Positions 11,178 to 17,488 of a stretch of DNA of 64,000 nt are shown here, in pieces. Under the pieces are notes generated by a model that worked only from the letters and a program-made list of their open reading frames with translations, had not been told where the DNA came from and did no database searches. The DNA is taken from contig QZKW01000066.1 of assembly GCA_003599885.1 (NCBI GenBank), positions 124,001 to 188,000 of the forward strand, given 5' to 3'. The stretch is from Desulfobacteraceae bacterium (GTDB taxonomy: Bacteria > Desulfobacterota > Desulfobacteria > Desulfobacterales > Desulfosalsimonadaceae). The translations under genes and the position numbers were made by a program. Numbering within the stretch: position 1 is the stretch's first letter; each line of letters starts with the position of its first letter.

Positions 11178-11993
11178 TCAGAATGGACCTTTTTTAAAAA
11201 AATGTGAAGCAGCGGCCAGCCACCCGCGTATCCGGGCAGAAGCCCTAAGGATATAGTCCCCGATGATACTTCGGAAAGGCGCATCATTTCCGGCAGACAC
11301 CAGCACCACTGTAATATTATCCCGGCCGCCATTTTTAACGGAAGTTTGAATCAGCAAATCCACCGTTTCCTGTTCATTCTTCCTGAGAGCCAGGAAACCG
11401 GCGATCTCGGCATCTGTTAGTTCTTTGTTAAGCCCGTCGCTGCAAAGAAGTATCTGCTGGCCCTGATAGAACACATCACTGACCATGTCCACTGAAACAT
11501 CATTGTTTTCCGATGATCCGAGGGCCTGCATGATAAAGTTCTGGTGGGAATGAAGATCGGCGGATTCGGCGGGAATAACCCCCTGGTCCACCAGATATTG
11601 AACATAAGAGTGGTCGCGGGTCAGCTGCCGCAAAGATTTTCCATTCCATAAATACGCCCGGCAATCCCCCACCCATGCCACTTCATACCGGTGACCGGTT
11701 ATTTTCAAAACCACCACCGTTGTTCCCATGCCGCTGGGCCCGACACCCTCCTGGGCGGCTTGAAGGATGGCATGATGAGCGTCCTGGACTGGCTTTACTA
11801 AAGGTTCGCCGGCTTTGATTCTCTCGACAATCAAGTCCGATGCAATAGCGCTGGCGACCTCCCCTCCCTGATGCCCGCCCATCCCGTCGGCAACCACCCA
11901 CAACCCCAAAGACGGCTCTGAACGGAAACAATCTTCGTTGTGAGAACGTTTGATACCAACATCAGTACCAGCTCCACATGCTAATTGGCTCAT
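11178..11993 (-). CDS. PP2C-type serine/threonine protein phosphatase
   Basis: A 271-residue PPM/PP2C phosphatase, Mn2+/Mg2+-dependent. Metal and phosphate motifs present: KRSHNEDCF (first Asp), LWVVADGMGGHQGGEVAS, GMGTTVVVL, VAWVGDCRAYLWN, LLCSDGL and GGRDNITVVLV. A short positively charged amphipathic tail follows the domain. The frame stays open to a TTG at 12065, but ATG 11993 gives the usual family N-terminus (MSQLACGAGTDVG). It is divergent from the OmpA/CHAT/kinase genes and is the natural partner of the kinase at 15.8 kb, reversing its phosphorylation; that pairing is an inference from proximity. Confidence 0.92.
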   Translation of the reverse strand: MSQLACGAGTDVGIKRSHNEDCFRSEPSLGLWVVADGMGGHQGGEVASAIASDLIVERIKAGEPLVKPVQDAHHAILQAAQEGVGPSGMGTTVVVLKITGHRYEVAWVGDCRAYLWNGKSLRQLTRDHSYVQYLVDQGVIPAESADLHSHQNFIMQALGSSENNDVSVDMVSDVFYQGQQILLCSDGLNKELTDAEIAGFLALRKNEQETVDLLIQTSVKNGGRDNITVVLVSAGNDAPFRSIIGDYILRASARIRGWLAAASHFFKKGPF

Positions 11994-12106
11994 TATCAGT
12001 CCATGGATCATTTTATGTGTTATTGATATGTCTGACTTAAAAAAGCGATTGTACCAAGGAAACAACTACTGCTTACTACAGTAAGACTGAATCATCAACA
12101 TTGATA

Positions 12107-12135
12107 TTGACGTTAATAAATCTGCATAATACATT
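12107..12135 (+). promoter_or_regulatory. Candidate sigma-70 promoter for the OmpA gene
   Basis: TTGACG at 12107-12112 and TACATT at 12130-12135 are 17 bases apart in the AT-rich divergent gap, about 50 bases before the OmpA start codon. It is a fair match to consensus, assigned by eye. Confidence 0.4.
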
Positions 12136-12184
12136 CATTTACACGTCTAAGTAATTTTCTTAACTTTACCGGGAGGGAAAAATC

Positions 12185-12733
12185 ATGAAAAAATTCCATT
12201 CATTCAACTTCGTTCTCATGGTATTCATCAGCACCGTTTTTTCAATTATTTGGCATGCCGAAGCCTTTGCCGGAGAGGTAAATTTTGATGACACTCCTCC
12301 ATCCGTAGACCAGGTGGTCCAAGCGTTAAAACCCGATCCGGTGCCGGAAATGAAACTCAGAGGCATTAACTATAACCCTGCACCGCCTGCACCCAAAATG
12401 GTTTCGATTACCCTTGAATTTGAAAAAAATTCTGCTGAGCTTACCCCAAAAACCCAGAAAAGTCTCTCGATGGTCGGACAGGCCCTCCGTTCTGATGACT
12501 TAAAACAGCTCTCGTTTACACTCGAAGGATACGCCGATGCCTCCGGCACTGCCGAGCATAATCTGGCTTTATCCCAAAAACGGGCGGCTTCTGTTAAAAA
12601 ATTTCTGGTTGATAATTACAACGTTAATCCCGAAAACCTGAAAGCGGTCGGCAAAGGGGAACAGGAATTCTTAGACCAGAATAACCCCTATTCTCCTAAA
12701 AACCGGCGTGTCAGGATCGTCACTGTCCAATAA
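12185..12733 (+). CDS. OmpA-family peptidoglycan-associated protein
   Basis: A 182-residue exported protein. The signal peptide (MKKFHSFNF to the FAG cleavage region near residue 30) has no lipobox. A Pro-rich spacer leads to an OmpA C-terminal domain at about 70-182: VSITLEFEKNSAELTPKTQK, LEGYADASGTAEHNLALSQK (the Asp that binds diaminopimelate), and NRRVRIVTV at the end (the matching Arg). There is no N-terminal barrel, so it probably tethers to peptidoglycan without being a porin. Ribosome site GGGAGG. The TPR-CHAT gene follows 111 bases later, so it may be the first gene of the signalling cluster. Confidence 0.9.
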   Translation: MKKFHSFNFVLMVFISTVFSIIWHAEAFAGEVNFDDTPPSVDQVVQALKPDPVPEMKLRGINYNPAPPAPKMVSITLEFEKNSAELTPKTQKSLSMVGQALRSDDLKQLSFTLEGYADASGTAEHNLALSQKRAASVKKFLVDNYNVNPENLKAVGKGEQEFLDQNNPYSPKNRRVRIVTVQ

Positions 12734-12844
12734 GCTGTTTTTCCGAAAGGAAATTTACCCTGCATGATCAGAACGATCAATCTGCAGCCGGCCGTTAAGG
12801 ATCAGTAACAATAACCTGAAGGACTTTTTTTAAGGAGACACCCT

Positions 12845-15637
12845 TTGAAAAAAAACCTTGAATTTGGTTTCTGGATTATGTTTGCCGTATTACTGATCCC
12901 CGTTGTTTTAACCGCCGCAGTTCCCCCATCCCAATTTGAAACTGTTTTTAATCAGGGTCTCGCCGCTTTTCATGCTGGCAATGCTGACGAAGCACTCGTA
13001 AAATGGCAGGAAGGACTGACCCTTGCCGAACAAAACAATGCCAGAACAATGATCAGCGCGTTTTCCGCAAATATCGGCCTGGCATATGCCAGCCGTGGGG
13101 AATATGATAACGCACTCCTCTATTATGAAAAAGCCCTTCTGATAAACAGGGAAACCAAAGATCAAAAAAACGCCGCCATCAATCTAAACAATATCGGAGC
13201 CGCATATAAAAACACCGGAAAACCTGAAAAAGCCCTTGAATATTACAATCAGGCCCTTGTCCTGCGCCGGGAAACCAAAGATCGCAAAGGAGAAGCCAAT
13301 ACATTAAACAATATGGGACTGCTTCTTTCTGATTCCGGTCAGTATAAAGACGCTTTTAAAAACATCAACGAAGCCCTGTTTATTTATCGGGACATCAGGG
13401 ACCAGCGGGGCGAAGCTGATGCCCTGATTCACTTAGGCGTTGCTTACACAACCATCGGGCAATTTGATCAGGCGATAGAGGCGTATCAAAAAGCTTCGGA
13501 TATCAATCTCCTGATGCATAGTCCCCGAAAACAGGCCCAGATCGCTGCCAACATGGGGACTGTTCATCTGTTGCGGGAGGACTATCAAAAGGCCATTGAT
13601 TCCTTTACCGAAGCATTGAAAATCCATCGCAACATCCCTCTTCAGAACGAAATCGCCAGCGATTTAAGTAATCTGGGGGTGGCATACAAGGGAACGGGCG
13701 ACTTTAAAAAAGCGCTTACCCACTATGAAGAAGCGCTGCTGATCAATCGTTCCATGGGCGACCGGCCAAATGAAGGCGCGATTTTAGGCAATATAGGACT
13801 GGTGCAGGAAGCTTCCGGCGACTATAAAGAAGCGCTGAAGAATTTAATTCAAAGTCATCAGATCTGCATGGCATCAGATCTGCCCGAGTACCAGTGGCGG
13901 GCGCTAAGAGGCCTTGGCAAGGTCGAAGCCCGGCTTGAAAAATTTGATAACTCGATTCTTCATTACAAACAATCAATTGATATTATTGAAAAAATACGGG
14001 ATAACCTAGCACAAAAAGAAACCAGGGCCTCTTTTATGCAATCCAAAACCCATGTATATGATGAGCTGATTGAATTGTACATGGCGCTGCACCCAAAAGA
14101 CCCTTCAAAAGGATACGACCGACAGTCTTTTGACCTGTTTGAACGAAAACAGGGACGTGTGTTTCTGGAAGAAATGGGCAAAAGCGGGGTGCGCAACTTC
14201 TCCGGCATTTCACCGGGACTGATCGAGAAACAGACCAAATTCACAAACGAACGGGACAGCATCACCGCCCTGATTGAAAAGGAATCAACCCGCCCGGCCC
14301 AGGAACAAGACCTTCAAAAAATAAAAAATCTTAAAGAAAAAATTGAAATTATCGACAACCAGCTCCGCATGCTCGAAGACACTATCAAAAAAGAATATCC
14401 GGATTATTACGCCCTCAAATATCCTCAACCCGTTGACGTAAACTATTTGCAAAAATTTGTCCTGTCTCCCCGCGAGATAATGTTAGTTTACAATATCATG
14501 CAGAATGATTCCTGTGTCTGGGCCATTGGAAAAGATTATTTTTCAATGGCCCGTATTGATAAAGGCGCTGAATCTTTAGCTGATGCGGTCACCGCTTTTC
14601 GGGATCAGGACATCAATTATTTCAAGGGGCAGACACTTCGTGGGCAGGGCAATGCTCCGGAATCATCGCCGTCCGGTAAATCCGTTTCAGATGCTTCCAA
14701 GTTATACCAAACCCTGTTTCCCGAACCGGTCACCAGAATCATCAAAAACTATTCAACCGTTTATATCGTGCCCACGGGCTCTTTGTATTTATTGCCCTTT
14801 GAAGCTTTAAAAAATGAAGCCCATCAGTATTTAATTGAAACGCACAGTTTTGCCTACCTGTCATCCGCTTCACTGCTGAATGTCCTGCGGGCTTCCCAGG
14901 GAAGGCTTAAAACCGAACCCGCCTATCCGTTTCTGGCATTCGCCAATCCGGTCTATGAAGTTCCCCCAAAAAGCAATGATGTGGTGGATGATCTTCAGGT
15001 GCGGTCTTTTTACAACCTGATGCGCGGGAATATCGAACCGCTTCCTGAAACGGAAGACGAAGTGACCCGGATAAAAAACATTTTGCTGGCGCCGGATTCC
15101 AGCAACCCGCTACAGACACAGAAAAATGCCTCCTGCAGCAAGGTATTTGATTTCAACTCCAGAGGCAGTCTTGATGACTACCGTTATATTTCCTTTGCCT
15201 GCCACGGCGTCATCCCGGATCAAACCAACGGCATCACCCAGCCTTCCCTGCTGCTCTCGACTCCGGACCCGGTTACACAGAAAATCGGTCTGCTGACCAT
15301 GACAGATGCGTTTGGCTTGAAATTTAATGCCGATCTGGTGGCTCTTTCAGCCTGCAATACGGGCCGGGGGGAAGTTGTCAACGGCGAAGGCGTAATGGGG
15401 CTGACCCGCGCCTTCATGTATGCCGGAACCCCCACTGTCAGCGTCAACCTCTGGTCTGTGGAATCCATATCTGCCCAGAAACTCAGCGTTTCTTTCTTTT
15501 CGGCGCTCCAGCAGGGCGCCAGCCGGGCAGAAGCGCTGCGGGCGAGCAAGCTCAAACTCATTCACGGAGAAGAAGGAAGTCAGTTCCAACAACCCTTTTT
15601 CTGGGCGCCGATGGTCATCTTTGGTGACGGAAGCTGA
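12845..15637 (+). CDS. Exported TPR-repeat CHAT-domain (caspase-like) protein
   Basis: A 930-residue protein. An N-terminal hydrophobic segment (about 8-25, ending LTAAV) predicts export or anchoring in the inner membrane. Residues about 35-400 hold at least eight TPR units, recognisable by repeats such as ALLYYEKALLINRETKD and ALEYYNQALVLRRETKD. A coiled linker at 460-540 leads to a CHAT peptidase domain at about 620-930. The catalytic pair is intact: His787 in SFACHG and Cys837 in LSACNTGRGE. The C-terminus QQPFFWAPMVIFGDG is typical. Translation starts at TTG with AAGGAG 7 bases upstream. CHAT proteins are His-Cys proteases of the caspase/separase clan; the substrate is unknown. The kinase gene follows 200 bases later. 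Confidence 0.92.
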   Translation: MKKNLEFGFWIMFAVLLIPVVLTAAVPPSQFETVFNQGLAAFHAGNADEALVKWQEGLTLAEQNNARTMISAFSANIGLAYASRGEYDNALLYYEKALLINRETKDQKNAAINLNNIGAAYKNTGKPEKALEYYNQALVLRRETKDRKGEANTLNNMGLLLSDSGQYKDAFKNINEALFIYRDIRDQRGEADALIHLGVAYTTIGQFDQAIEAYQKASDINLLMHSPRKQAQIAANMGTVHLLREDYQKAIDSFTEALKIHRNIPLQNEIASDLSNLGVAYKGTGDFKKALTHYEEALLINRSMGDRPNEGAILGNIGLVQEASGDYKEALKNLIQSHQICMASDLPEYQWRALRGLGKVEARLEKFDNSILHYKQSIDIIEKIRDNLAQKETRASFMQSKTHVYDELIELYMALHPKDPSKGYDRQSFDLFERKQGRVFLEEMGKSGVRNFSGISPGLIEKQTKFTNERDSITALIEKESTRPAQEQDLQKIKNLKEKIEIIDNQLRMLEDTIKKEYPDYYALKYPQPVDVNYLQKFVLSPREIMLVYNIMQNDSCVWAIGKDYFSMARIDKGAESLADAVTAFRDQDINYFKGQTLRGQGNAPESSPSGKSVSDASKLYQTLFPEPVTRIIKNYSTVYIVPTGSLYLLPFEALKNEAHQYLIETHSFAYLSSASLLNVLRASQGRLKTEPAYPFLAFANPVYEVPPKSNDVVDDLQVRSFYNLMRGNIEPLPETEDEVTRIKNILLAPDSSNPLQTQKNASCSKVFDFNSRGSLDDYRYISFACHGVIPDQTNGITQPSLLLSTPDPVTQKIGLLTMTDAFGLKFNADLVALSACNTGRGEVVNGEGVMGLTRAFMYAGTPTVSVNLWSVESISAQKLSVSFFSALQQGASRAEALRASKLKLIHGEEGSQFQQPFFWAPMVIFGDGS

Positions 15638-15841
15638 TTTTTTTAAAGAAAAATCCATTACCCTTGCATTGGCTGCATTGATAAAGCGACTCACGCTCGA
15701 ATCAATTGAGCGATCTTCCTTGTTGCCATTCCATCATAATCCGCTAATTTATAGGAACTTTTTGAGTTCTGTCATTACAGACAGGGACAATTCTATGGCA
15801 TGGAATCTCAGCCGGGCACATTTCGCAGGAGACAGGATGTA

Positions 15842-17488
15842 ATGTCAGACGACAACAGGACAAAATTGCAAGCCATTCTCGGTGACAAGTATGACGTTCA
15901 GGATATGATTTACAGAGGTGGAATGGGGGAAATCTACCTTGGCCTCCACAAAACACTTGGCACAAAAGTGGCCATCAAAATCATGATCCAGAGATTAACG
16001 GATGACCCGGAACTCAAAAAACGGTTTCACCGTGAAGCCCAGCTCTATGCCAATCTCAGGCATCCGAATATTATTCATATATATGATTTTGGAACTGCGG
16101 AAGCTTTTGATTACATGGTTTTTCCTTTTATTGAAGGCGAAACGCTTTATCAGAAATTACAACGTGAAGGCCGCATTGATGTTAAGGAATGCCTTCATAT
16201 CATCATCTCCGTCGCCAAGGCCCTTGCCTATGCAAGTGAAAACAATGTTATTCACCGGGATGTCAAACCATCCAACATCATGATTGAAAAAAACGGCAAT
16301 GTGCTGATTGCAGACTTCGGTATCTCAAAAAATCTCAAGGATATTGAGCTAACGCTTCCGGGCACTGTGCTGGGATCGCCTAAATACATCAGCCCGGAAC
16401 AGGTCCTGGCAGGAGAAGCCGACAGCCGGAGTGACCAATATGCACTGGGGATCATTTTTTTTGAAATGATCACCGGCAACTATCCATTTCAAGGCACACA
16501 GGCCAGCGCTCTATTCTACAGCCATGTGAATGAAATCCCTCAAATTCCCGAAAAGATTGTCCCGCTCATACAGCCGGAAATCATTAACATCATCAACAAA
16601 CTCATTGCCAAAGACCCGGCTTCCCGGTTTGATGATTTCAACTCGCTCATTGATGAATTAACGATTATTCAGATGGAAGAAACCCAGATCCATCGCAAAG
16701 ACGGCCACCATCATACCCGTTCAGGGAAAAACTCAAGCAAGCCGATGTTTTATTTCAAATCCGCTCTTTTAATTACAGGTATCGCCATTCTACTGGTTCT
16801 CGAATATTTCTGGTTGGATATGCGGCAGACAGAGAAAATCGGGGCACATTCTGTTGCTAATAATGTTCAAAAGCCTGTGCCAGCAGCGAATTCAATGCAA
16901 ATAGAAAATCAAACAGCAGAAACACAAATTACGCCGGTAAAAGCTGAAACCATGACAACCGATACAGAGATAACCGCTTCTCAGAATCAGGACAAACCCA
17001 TGGCATCGCTGCTGAGTGTATCGGAAATTAAAAAACTGTTGCTGAATTTCGGTGAGCCGGATCGGTCCGGGCTGTTCCAGATCGGCATCAATCAAAAGAC
17101 TTTTCAAATCGGAGAAACCATTGCCTATTCCATCGAGGCCGTCAAAGACTGCCATGTCATTTTACTTAACTTCACCACCAATAATGAAATTATTCAGTTG
17201 TTCCCCAACCGGTTTCATCCGGAGTCAGGGATTCAGGCCGGCAGTGTCTATTCGATTCCAAGTCAGGGGTCTTTTGATGTGACCGGTCCAGCCGGATTGG
17301 AAACAGTGGTGGGCTTTGCCGGTGAAACCGCTCTTGACCTCTTGCCCCTTGCTTTTGACCAAAGCCCATTTGTCACAGTGACCGACGCCAACCCGGAAAA
17401 CCTGGAACAAATGATTCTGAAAATGAGAGGCAAGAATCCCGATCATTTCTACAGAAGAACCATAGATTTTCAGATTTCTAATGAATAA
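15842..17488 (+). CDS. Transmembrane Ser/Thr protein kinase with extracytoplasmic DUF4384 domain
   Basis: A 548-residue Hanks-type kinase. The kinase domain is about 15-275: glycine loop YRGGMGEIYLG, VAIKIM lysine, HRDVKPSNIM with the catalytic Asp near 140, DFGIS near 158, and SPKYISPEQ in the P+1 loop. A basic stretch then leads to one membrane helix at about 302-322. The outer part has a Thr/Gln-rich linker and a DUF4384 domain at about 405-500 (GETIAYSIEAVKDCHVILLN, IIQLFPNRFHP). DUF4384 accompanies caspase-like proteins and kinases in bacteria. ATG 15842 is preferred over ATG 15800 because AGGAG lies 10 bases upstream. Expected partners are the PP2C and CHAT proteins encoded just upstream. 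Confidence 0.93.
   Translation: MSDDNRTKLQAILGDKYDVQDMIYRGGMGEIYLGLHKTLGTKVAIKIMIQRLTDDPELKKRFHREAQLYANLRHPNIIHIYDFGTAEAFDYMVFPFIEGETLYQKLQREGRIDVKECLHIIISVAKALAYASENNVIHRDVKPSNIMIEKNGNVLIADFGISKNLKDIELTLPGTVLGSPKYISPEQVLAGEADSRSDQYALGIIFFEMITGNYPFQGTQASALFYSHVNEIPQIPEKIVPLIQPEIINIINKLIAKDPASRFDDFNSLIDELTIIQMEETQIHRKDGHHHTRSGKNSSKPMFYFKSALLITGIAILLVLEYFWLDMRQTEKIGAHSVANNVQKPVPAANSMQIENQTAETQITPVKAETMTTDTEITASQNQDKPMASLLSVSEIKKLLLNFGEPDRSGLFQIGINQKTFQIGETIAYSIEAVKDCHVILLNFTTNNEIIQLFPNRFHPESGIQAGSVYSIPSQGSFDVTGPAGLETVVGFAGETALDLLPLAFDQSPFVTVTDANPENLEQMILKMRGKNPDHFYRRTIDFQISNE

Follow-up and report, generated by a model that had tools for sequence, protein, structure and literature searches.

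The subject of this analysis is a block of four adjacent genes in a Desulfobacteraceae bacterium (GenBank assembly GCA_003599885.1), which is related to sulfate-reducing bacteria and whose 4.51-Mb genome consists of 90 contigs and is 98.8% complete. The window, that is, the whole stretch of DNA analysed, comprises 64,000 nucleotides of contig QZKW01000066.1 (G000:C2:124001-188000). On its reverse strand, positions 11178..12065 encode a PP2C-type Ser/Thr phosphatase (P0001; Pfam PP2C_2, 3e-13), which is divergent from the other three genes. These lie on the forward strand and encode a small OmpA-family protein of the peptidoglycan-binding type (P0002; 12185..12733; Pfam OmpA, 3e-20), a TPR-CHAT caspase-fold protein with a TTG start (12845..15637; Pfam CHAT, 6e-60, and many TPR models), and a transmembrane Ser/Thr kinase with a DUF4384 domain (15842..17488; Pfam Pkinase, 2e-51; DUF4384, 8e-16). 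All four genes are present at these coordinates, and their Pfam matches are all over the curated cut-offs. The divergent phosphatase gene and the preceding OmpA-family gene of the initial annotation are borne out by position and by Pfam.

The CHAT domain (14693..15628, forward strand; residues 617-928) scores 203.5 bits against a cut-off of 24 for PF12770. Its catalytic dyad is intact, with His787 and Cys837 at exactly the positions named in the initial annotation. The dyad is conserved among orthologues, since H and C occupy the two columns in 49/49 of the rows that cover both (51 rows were aligned, and two do not cover both columns). Five of the 55 members of the CHAT cluster have no CHAT-domain match and were left unaligned. 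The column-based check replaced a stricter pattern with a fixed gap length and fixed neighbours, which had matched 24 of 46 long members. In a profile comparison, the Cys region aligns with that of a protein of solved structure that contains a CHAT domain (8rot, E 0.004). Weaker alignments (E 0.7-1) link it to 7x8a and other chains that bear the name 'CHAT domain protein', which we take to be Craspase entries.

The CHAT protein is predicted to be exported, as had been proposed from its N-terminus. The TTG start codon has AAGGAG just upstream, and the predicted signal peptide (12845..12919, forward strand) has two Lys/Arg ahead of a hydrophobic core (Kyte-Doolittle 3.2 over 12 amino acids) and a small-residue site near position 25. 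A signal-like N-terminus is common among the orthologues, occurring in 36 of the 40 complete ones longer than 600 amino acids by an approximate, home-made rule. The rule is generous in that any M, V or L up to position 70 was tried, and one orthologue (L116) passes only weakly. Beyond residue 60 the best 19-residue hydropathy value is 1.05, and no transmembrane segment like that of HetF is seen. One exported CHAT orthologue carries an N-terminal PDZ domain (L037; Pfam PDZ_2, 3e-8).

The true start of the kinase is probably the ATG at 15842, which is preferred to the start of the longest open reading frame at 15800 because of comparison with the orthologue in the same-family genome G018. The kinase domain (residues 33-277) scores 175.5 bits against a cut-off of 31.7 for PF00069 and carries the VAIK Lys and an HRDVKPSN motif; the strict glycine-loop pattern GxGxxG was not found in the kinase, which reads GGMGEIYLG. 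DUF4384 (17099..17326, forward strand; residues 434-509) scores 58.4 bits against 27 for PF14326. A Kyte-Doolittle scan finds one strongly hydrophobic segment, at residues about 315-341 (16742..16822, forward strand). Because this single segment separates the two domains, they are predicted to lie on opposite membrane sides, with DUF4384 outside, and hydropathy thus agrees with the topology first suggested. The ectodomain is predicted to be an immunoglobulin-like beta-sandwich (AlphaFold2, 29 sequences; predicted local distance difference test, pLDDT, 91.7). The model resembles macroglobulin-type and other immunoglobulin-like sandwiches (best 2p9r_B, Z 8.6, 2.0 A over 88 residues), with Foldseek E-values no better than 1e-3, and its sequence has no solved-chain match at E <= 1. 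The modelled match is to a common fold and says nothing on function, and we know of no function for DUF4384. The protein is not a PASTA kinase of the PknB/Stk1 type, scoring 309.1 bits against a cut-off of 450 for NF033483, with a match that ends at residue 299 and no PASTA repeats.

The phosphatase has the PP2C motifs DGMGGH, SDGL and DNI and matches general PP2C models; it falls below the Stp1/IreP model (NF033484, 211.1 bits against 230), and no export signal was seen in it. It is probably the reset enzyme of the kinase. This role is supported because a P0001 paralogue lies directly upstream of another kinase in the same genome (G000:C63). The OmpA-family protein scores 72.8 bits against 27.2 for PF00691. 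It has the NxxLSxxRAxxV motif (NLALSQKRA) and GYAD, whose Asp and Arg are presumably the peptidoglycan-binding residues. A signal peptide is predicted, and a lipobox is absent by eye.

The gene order is found again in a relative. When the full CHAT sequence was searched against 116 related genomes, 25 had matches at E <= 1e-30, many of them distant (25-42% identity) or partial. The closest full-length proteins belong to G006, of the same genus (58% identity), and to G018, of the same family (55%). A kinase-DUF4384 gene (55%) follows the CHAT gene of G018 after 25 bp and is itself followed by an FHA gene. The G018 CHAT contig (C46) starts inside an OmpA gene, and another contig (C136) carries an OmpA gene (58%) and a divergent PP2C gene (64%). 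The first 97 bases of C46 agree with the OmpA 3' end near the C136 edge at 93 positions; beyond this overlap, the last ~80 bases of C136 differ from C46, so the contig join is imperfect. Order and orientation are, on this sequence comparison, kept in the second genus across that imperfect join. The four genes form a lineage-specific conserved block, which is more than chance because the same gene order recurs in another genus. In G006 the locus is decayed. The OmpA gene is a pseudogene (a fragment with a stop, 47%, matching residues 9-83), the kinase is reduced to a frame of about 95 residues matching its first part, and no PP2C gene lies within 6 kb of the CHAT locus, the best PP2C match being elsewhere (G006:C54). 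A gene for a subtilase-family protein (L035 5544-6968; Peptidase_S8, 5e-29) comes after the FHA gene in G018.

Conservation does not extend further. A scan of genome contigs for CHAT gave 48 loci, and 46 were kept after two from Bacteroidetes (L157 and L158, 22% identity) were dropped. They come from Desulfobacterota and Thiotrichales (Parabeggiatoa, Thioploca, Thiomargarita, Marithrix). Kinase, CHASE2, cyclase and other neighbours were called with home-made hidden Markov models (HMMs); four of the 46 loci have less than 1 kb of DNA on both sides, others are truncated on one flank, and L126 nearly duplicates L148. Three loci have a kinase within 6 kb of CHAT, intact in G018 (L112), as a remnant in G006 (L111), and on the opposite strand in L155. 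Wide conservation of the four-gene order was rejected on this count, a kinase following CHAT only in L112 and, as the remnant, in L111. The initial annotation had seen the genes as one system; that idea gains from a block conserved in one further genus with remnants in a third genome, and it does not hold as a widespread arrangement.

Evidence of another kind comes from DUF4384 itself. The domain is present in 23 of 473 orthocaspases according to the accessible part of PMC8283722, and the available portions of that paper and of PMC6426788 describe it in one chain with caspase domains; the latter also reports it together with kinase domains at the N-terminus. The genome studied here contains one CHAT protein, two DUF4384 proteins and, among the matches listed, one caspase-fold protein of the C14 family. 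Both DUF4384 proteins are kinases, one beside CHAT and the other beside C14. The second kinase-DUF4384 gene (L208 8444-10216) is directly upstream of the C14 gene, which encodes 710 amino acids with a signal-peptide-like start and the dyad motifs GHG and DTCHSG. Genes resembling type II secretion E and F, and three FHA genes, lie upstream of this kinase. In this genome, each of the two caspase-fold proteins detected thus has an export signal and stands beside a membrane kinase, and the two kinases share an outer domain. The second locus (L208 6287-17237; G000:C3:147000-165000) also holds genes for CsgG, a GNA1162-like lipoprotein and an outer-membrane efflux protein, and similar clusters exist in G005, G006, G009, G012 and partly G087, some of them cut by contig ends.

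The pairing recurs among the 116 genomes. Nine kinase-DUF4384 fusions were found, the window's included, and weaker kinases may be missed from this number. Seven of the nine adjoin a caspase-fold protease with a signal-like start, which is CHAT in two cases (the window and G018) and C14 in five (G000-C3, G005, G009, G012 and G087). The suggestion that DUF4384 often travels with caspase-like proteins is confirmed more generally, as at least 48 of the 102 domains have a C14 gene, among the matches listed, no more than 6 kb away, with ~1.4 expected under uniform placement; five DUF4384 rows below the cut-off were excluded from this count. Three further domains lie near CHAT, out of eight CHAT rows picked by eye mainly for sharing a contig with a DUF4384 row, so this is no blind count. 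The co-localisations are clustered in G041, G070 and G111 and should be read as 20 of 48 genomes, not as 51 independent events. Dyad motifs are present in 11 of the 12 C14 proteins examined. Related kinases without a DUF4384 match show similar company. Kinase, C14, PP2C and FHA genes share one contig in G017 and in G004, with C14 on the other strand in G004, and in G019 the C14, PP2C and FHA genes share a contig and the related kinase is on another.

We favour, at a probability of roughly 0.45, the reading that the block is a transmembrane signalling system in which the exported CHAT protein acts on the DUF4384 ectodomain of the receptor kinase. If CHAT is exported, it lies outside and the kinase domain inside, so that the parts able to meet are CHAT (or its TPR repeats), the OmpA-family protein and DUF4384. 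Since the cytoplasmic kinase domain cannot act on a periplasmic protein, the signal would run inwards. This compartment logic and the occurrence of DUF4384 in cis with caspase domains together favour a protease-ectodomain contact with outside-to-inside signalling. The OmpA-family protein would anchor the assembly at peptidoglycan, and the TPR repeats would recognize a ligand or client in the periplasm. The CHAT protease would dock on, or clip, the DUF4384 ectodomain or its ligand, and this event would switch the kinase inside the cell. FHA proteins would then bind phosphorylated targets, and PP2C would reset the state. At the second locus of the genome the same logic would apply, with an exported C14 caspase replacing CHAT. 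The related-kinase loci that lack DUF4384 and hold PP2C, FHA and C14 are counted in favour of this reading, as is the PDZ domain fused to an exported CHAT orthologue. A real contact would make DUF4384 the place where caspase-fold proteases dock or cut, and the pathway one with periplasmic proteolysis in and phosphorylation out. The label of envelope-stress or self-damage signalling, first attached to the block, is a guess.

Several observations weigh against this reading. The block is carried by only three genomes, one of them decayed, and 44 of the 46 CHAT loci have no co-directed kinase within 6 kb. The G006 CHAT gene is a full open frame despite its decayed OmpA and kinase genes, so CHAT can be kept without them. 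Two of the nine kinase fusions do not show the pairing. A contig end cuts off that of G006, and a C14 fragment lies at the end of another contig; that of G111 has no protease in view on its 4.5 kb contig. In the AlphaFold2 model of the CHAT protein (eight sequences), the TPR part is good, and the block-mean pLDDT is about 25-58 from approximately residue 690. Survival of CHAT in G006 and the lack of a receptor in the DNA at hand at most of the 46 loci fit an alternative in which TPR-CHAT is a periplasmic executioner or quality-control protease, whose expression the kinase and phosphatase would control, or whose damage they would sense, without contact. The PDZ-TPR-CHAT fusion also recalls quality-control proteases. 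This alternative is less likely than the favoured reading. The presence of DUF4384 and caspase domains in one chain speaks for contact rather than remote control, and kinases with DUF4384 have exported partners from two caspase-fold subfamilies, CHAT and C14. The same absence from nearly all CHAT loci fetched, and the decay in G006, could mean that the genes are neighbours by chance or serve general envelope housekeeping without a joint function. Set against this are the order and orientation that the second genus shares at 55-64% identity, its short CHAT-kinase gap, and a caspase-DUF4384 proximity far above the uniform expectation, and we consider it improbable.

The CHAT protein could instead be a non-proteolytic, scaffold-like sensor whose caspase fold binds, making TPR-CHAT a periplasmic ligand-binding co-receptor of the kinase. 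It has no known substrate, and pseudo-orthocaspases with DUF4384 exist (PMC6426788, in the part available). Retention of the His/Cys dyad in every covering row, and of dyad motifs in nearly all C14 proteins examined, makes this rather unlikely. An anti-phage or abortive-infection role is suggested by the service of a CHAT protease in Craspase (PMC9729208, accessible part) and by matches of the kinase part to PADLOC kinase models. The CHAT protein has an export signal, however, and no Cas gene is present among the six genes tested around it; Cas7-11 (gRAMP) and other Cas genes are absent from the Pfam matches of these six genes between 9439 and 18683. A defence role is very improbable, and the PADLOC matches, which reflect generic kinase, TPR and OmpA similarity, were rejected as evidence for it.

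Elsewhere, exported CHAT proteins have another type of membrane neighbour. A CHASE2 protein lies within 4.5 kb in 13 of the 46 CHAT loci and is the commonest identified receptor-type neighbour. The CHASE2 form occurs, for example, in the cultured Desulfonema magnum (L149). Three of these CHASE2 proteins carry a nucleotide-cyclase domain (by Pfam for one, by HMM for three), and their genes are at L039 13601-15466, L113 2-1729 and L123 6990-8936. The CHASE2-cyclase partners place another membrane receptor beside the same exported CHAT, which supports the proposal that CHAT acts on a receptor ectodomain. In a CHAT tree of 47 rows with an arbitrary root, the three kinase-linked proteins form one group (100/100). 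This group lies on one side of a branch (97/91) with 23 rows, 12 of them CHASE2-linked, and of the rows nearest to it L116 has a DUF4384-like frame on the opposite strand, and L117, L144 and L124 have neither a kinase nor a CHASE2 partner in the DNA available. These sequence relationships make it a likely candidate event that the kinase took the place of CHASE2 as the CHAT partner. A broader generalization is doubtful, namely that exported CHAT or C14 proteins might form the outer half of transmembrane receptors, with a DUF4384-kinase or a CHASE2 sensor or CHASE2-cyclase depending on lineage, and turn periplasmic proteolysis into intracellular signals, by phosphorylation or cyclic nucleotides. 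This would amount to a receptor-kinase pathway gated by a protease of the caspase fold.

Caspase-like proteins of bacteria are commonly regarded as killers acting in the cytoplasm or as proteases of defence. In DegS/RseA-type signalling, a periplasmic protease feeds a transmembrane signal whose output is the release of a sigma factor. The existence of a PDZ-TPR-CHAT orthologue is a likeness to this system; the caspase fold and the kinase output of the proposed contact are differences. The PknB/Stk1 kinases with an Stp1-type PP2C and FHA likewise combine a single-pass kinase, a PP2C and FHA (the last seen in G018), but the window kinase has a DUF4384 ectodomain and an adjoining exported caspase-fold protease. 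Orthocaspases and pseudo-orthocaspases of cyanobacteria and alphaproteobacteria also associate a caspase fold with DUF4384. In these the domains are in one chain and the caspase is C14, whereas in the window the CHAT protein is separate and exported, and a receptor kinase carries DUF4384 as its ectodomain. In the type III-E CRISPR system, Craspase, TPR-CHAT (Csx29) likewise has TPR repeats and a C-terminal CHAT domain; the window protein differs in having a signal peptide. The HetF protein of Anabaena has CHAT, TPR, one membrane segment and an interaction with FtsI according to the accessible part of PMC8406250, and shares CHAT, TPR and an envelope link with the window protein. Its CHAT domain is N-terminal and accompanied by the transmembrane segment, in contrast to the C-terminal CHAT domain here, so the window protein is not of the HetF type, and no kinase partner is described in that part of PMC8406250. 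Published domain architectures include DUF4384 with kinase, DUF4384 with caspase, and CHASE2 with caspase (available parts of PMC6426788, PMC8283722, PMC7475262 and PMC2853523). These architectures are known; a module at the level of genes, with proteases that are exported, and the swap of CHAT for C14 beside the same kinase type were not found in the open-licence PMC literature searched and appear to be new to that extent.

The OmpA-family protein also has relatives near caspase-fold proteases. P0002 has 43 matches, spread over 36 of the 291 genomes of the class. A C14 or CHAT gene lies within 6 kb of 13 of them, and C14, CHAT or DUF4384 within 6 kb of 18, leaving 25 with none, in flanks that several contig ends cut short. 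The four closest matches (E < 1e-30; window, G018, G224 and G110) are all at caspase-fold-protease loci, the placement in G018 relying on the contig overlap. In G110 the gene after OmpA encodes a WD40-C14 protein with a signal-like start, whose dyad is unmatched by the motif pattern used. In G224 a MORN protein gene comes after OmpA and is followed by C14, and the opposite strand carries DUF4384, kinase and FHA genes. A C14 gene of G224 near a P0002-like OmpA gene (L200 11719-14520) is split by an apparent insertion element. C14 is fused to WD40, PEGA or FGE-sulfatase near P0002-like OmpA genes at L191 13789-16173, L195 10032-12050 and L118 18653-21547.

Other neighbours of CHAT genes are varied. 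A recurrent exported protein, dubbed 'FecR-like' here, is encoded within 4.5 kb in 16 of the 46 loci; the one tested reaches no Pfam cut-off, its match to MtxA_IG-like scoring 20.7 bits where 26 are required. A DUF4384-like frame lies beside CHAT on the opposite strand in L116 (4e-6), an OmpA-like frame follows CHAT in L130 (6e-7), and C14 is near CHAT at L118 and, weakly, at L137. The exported PDZ-TPR-CHAT proteins at L037 2884-5958 and L038 6406-9486 have CHASE2 and the recurrent exported gene downstream. In Desulfobacterales bacterium HSG2 (L115 3-12061), four tandem TPR-CHAT genes or gene ends are followed by CHASE2 and the recurrent exported gene. A Parabeggiatoa metagenome-assembled genome encodes a C14 HMM match (1e-40) and a CHAT match in one chain (L140 9086-12484). 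Giant frames of TPR and CHAT, about 2,850-2,940 amino acids long, occur in the same genus and family (L014, L015, L018, L052 and L053) and are more distant from the window CHAT protein.

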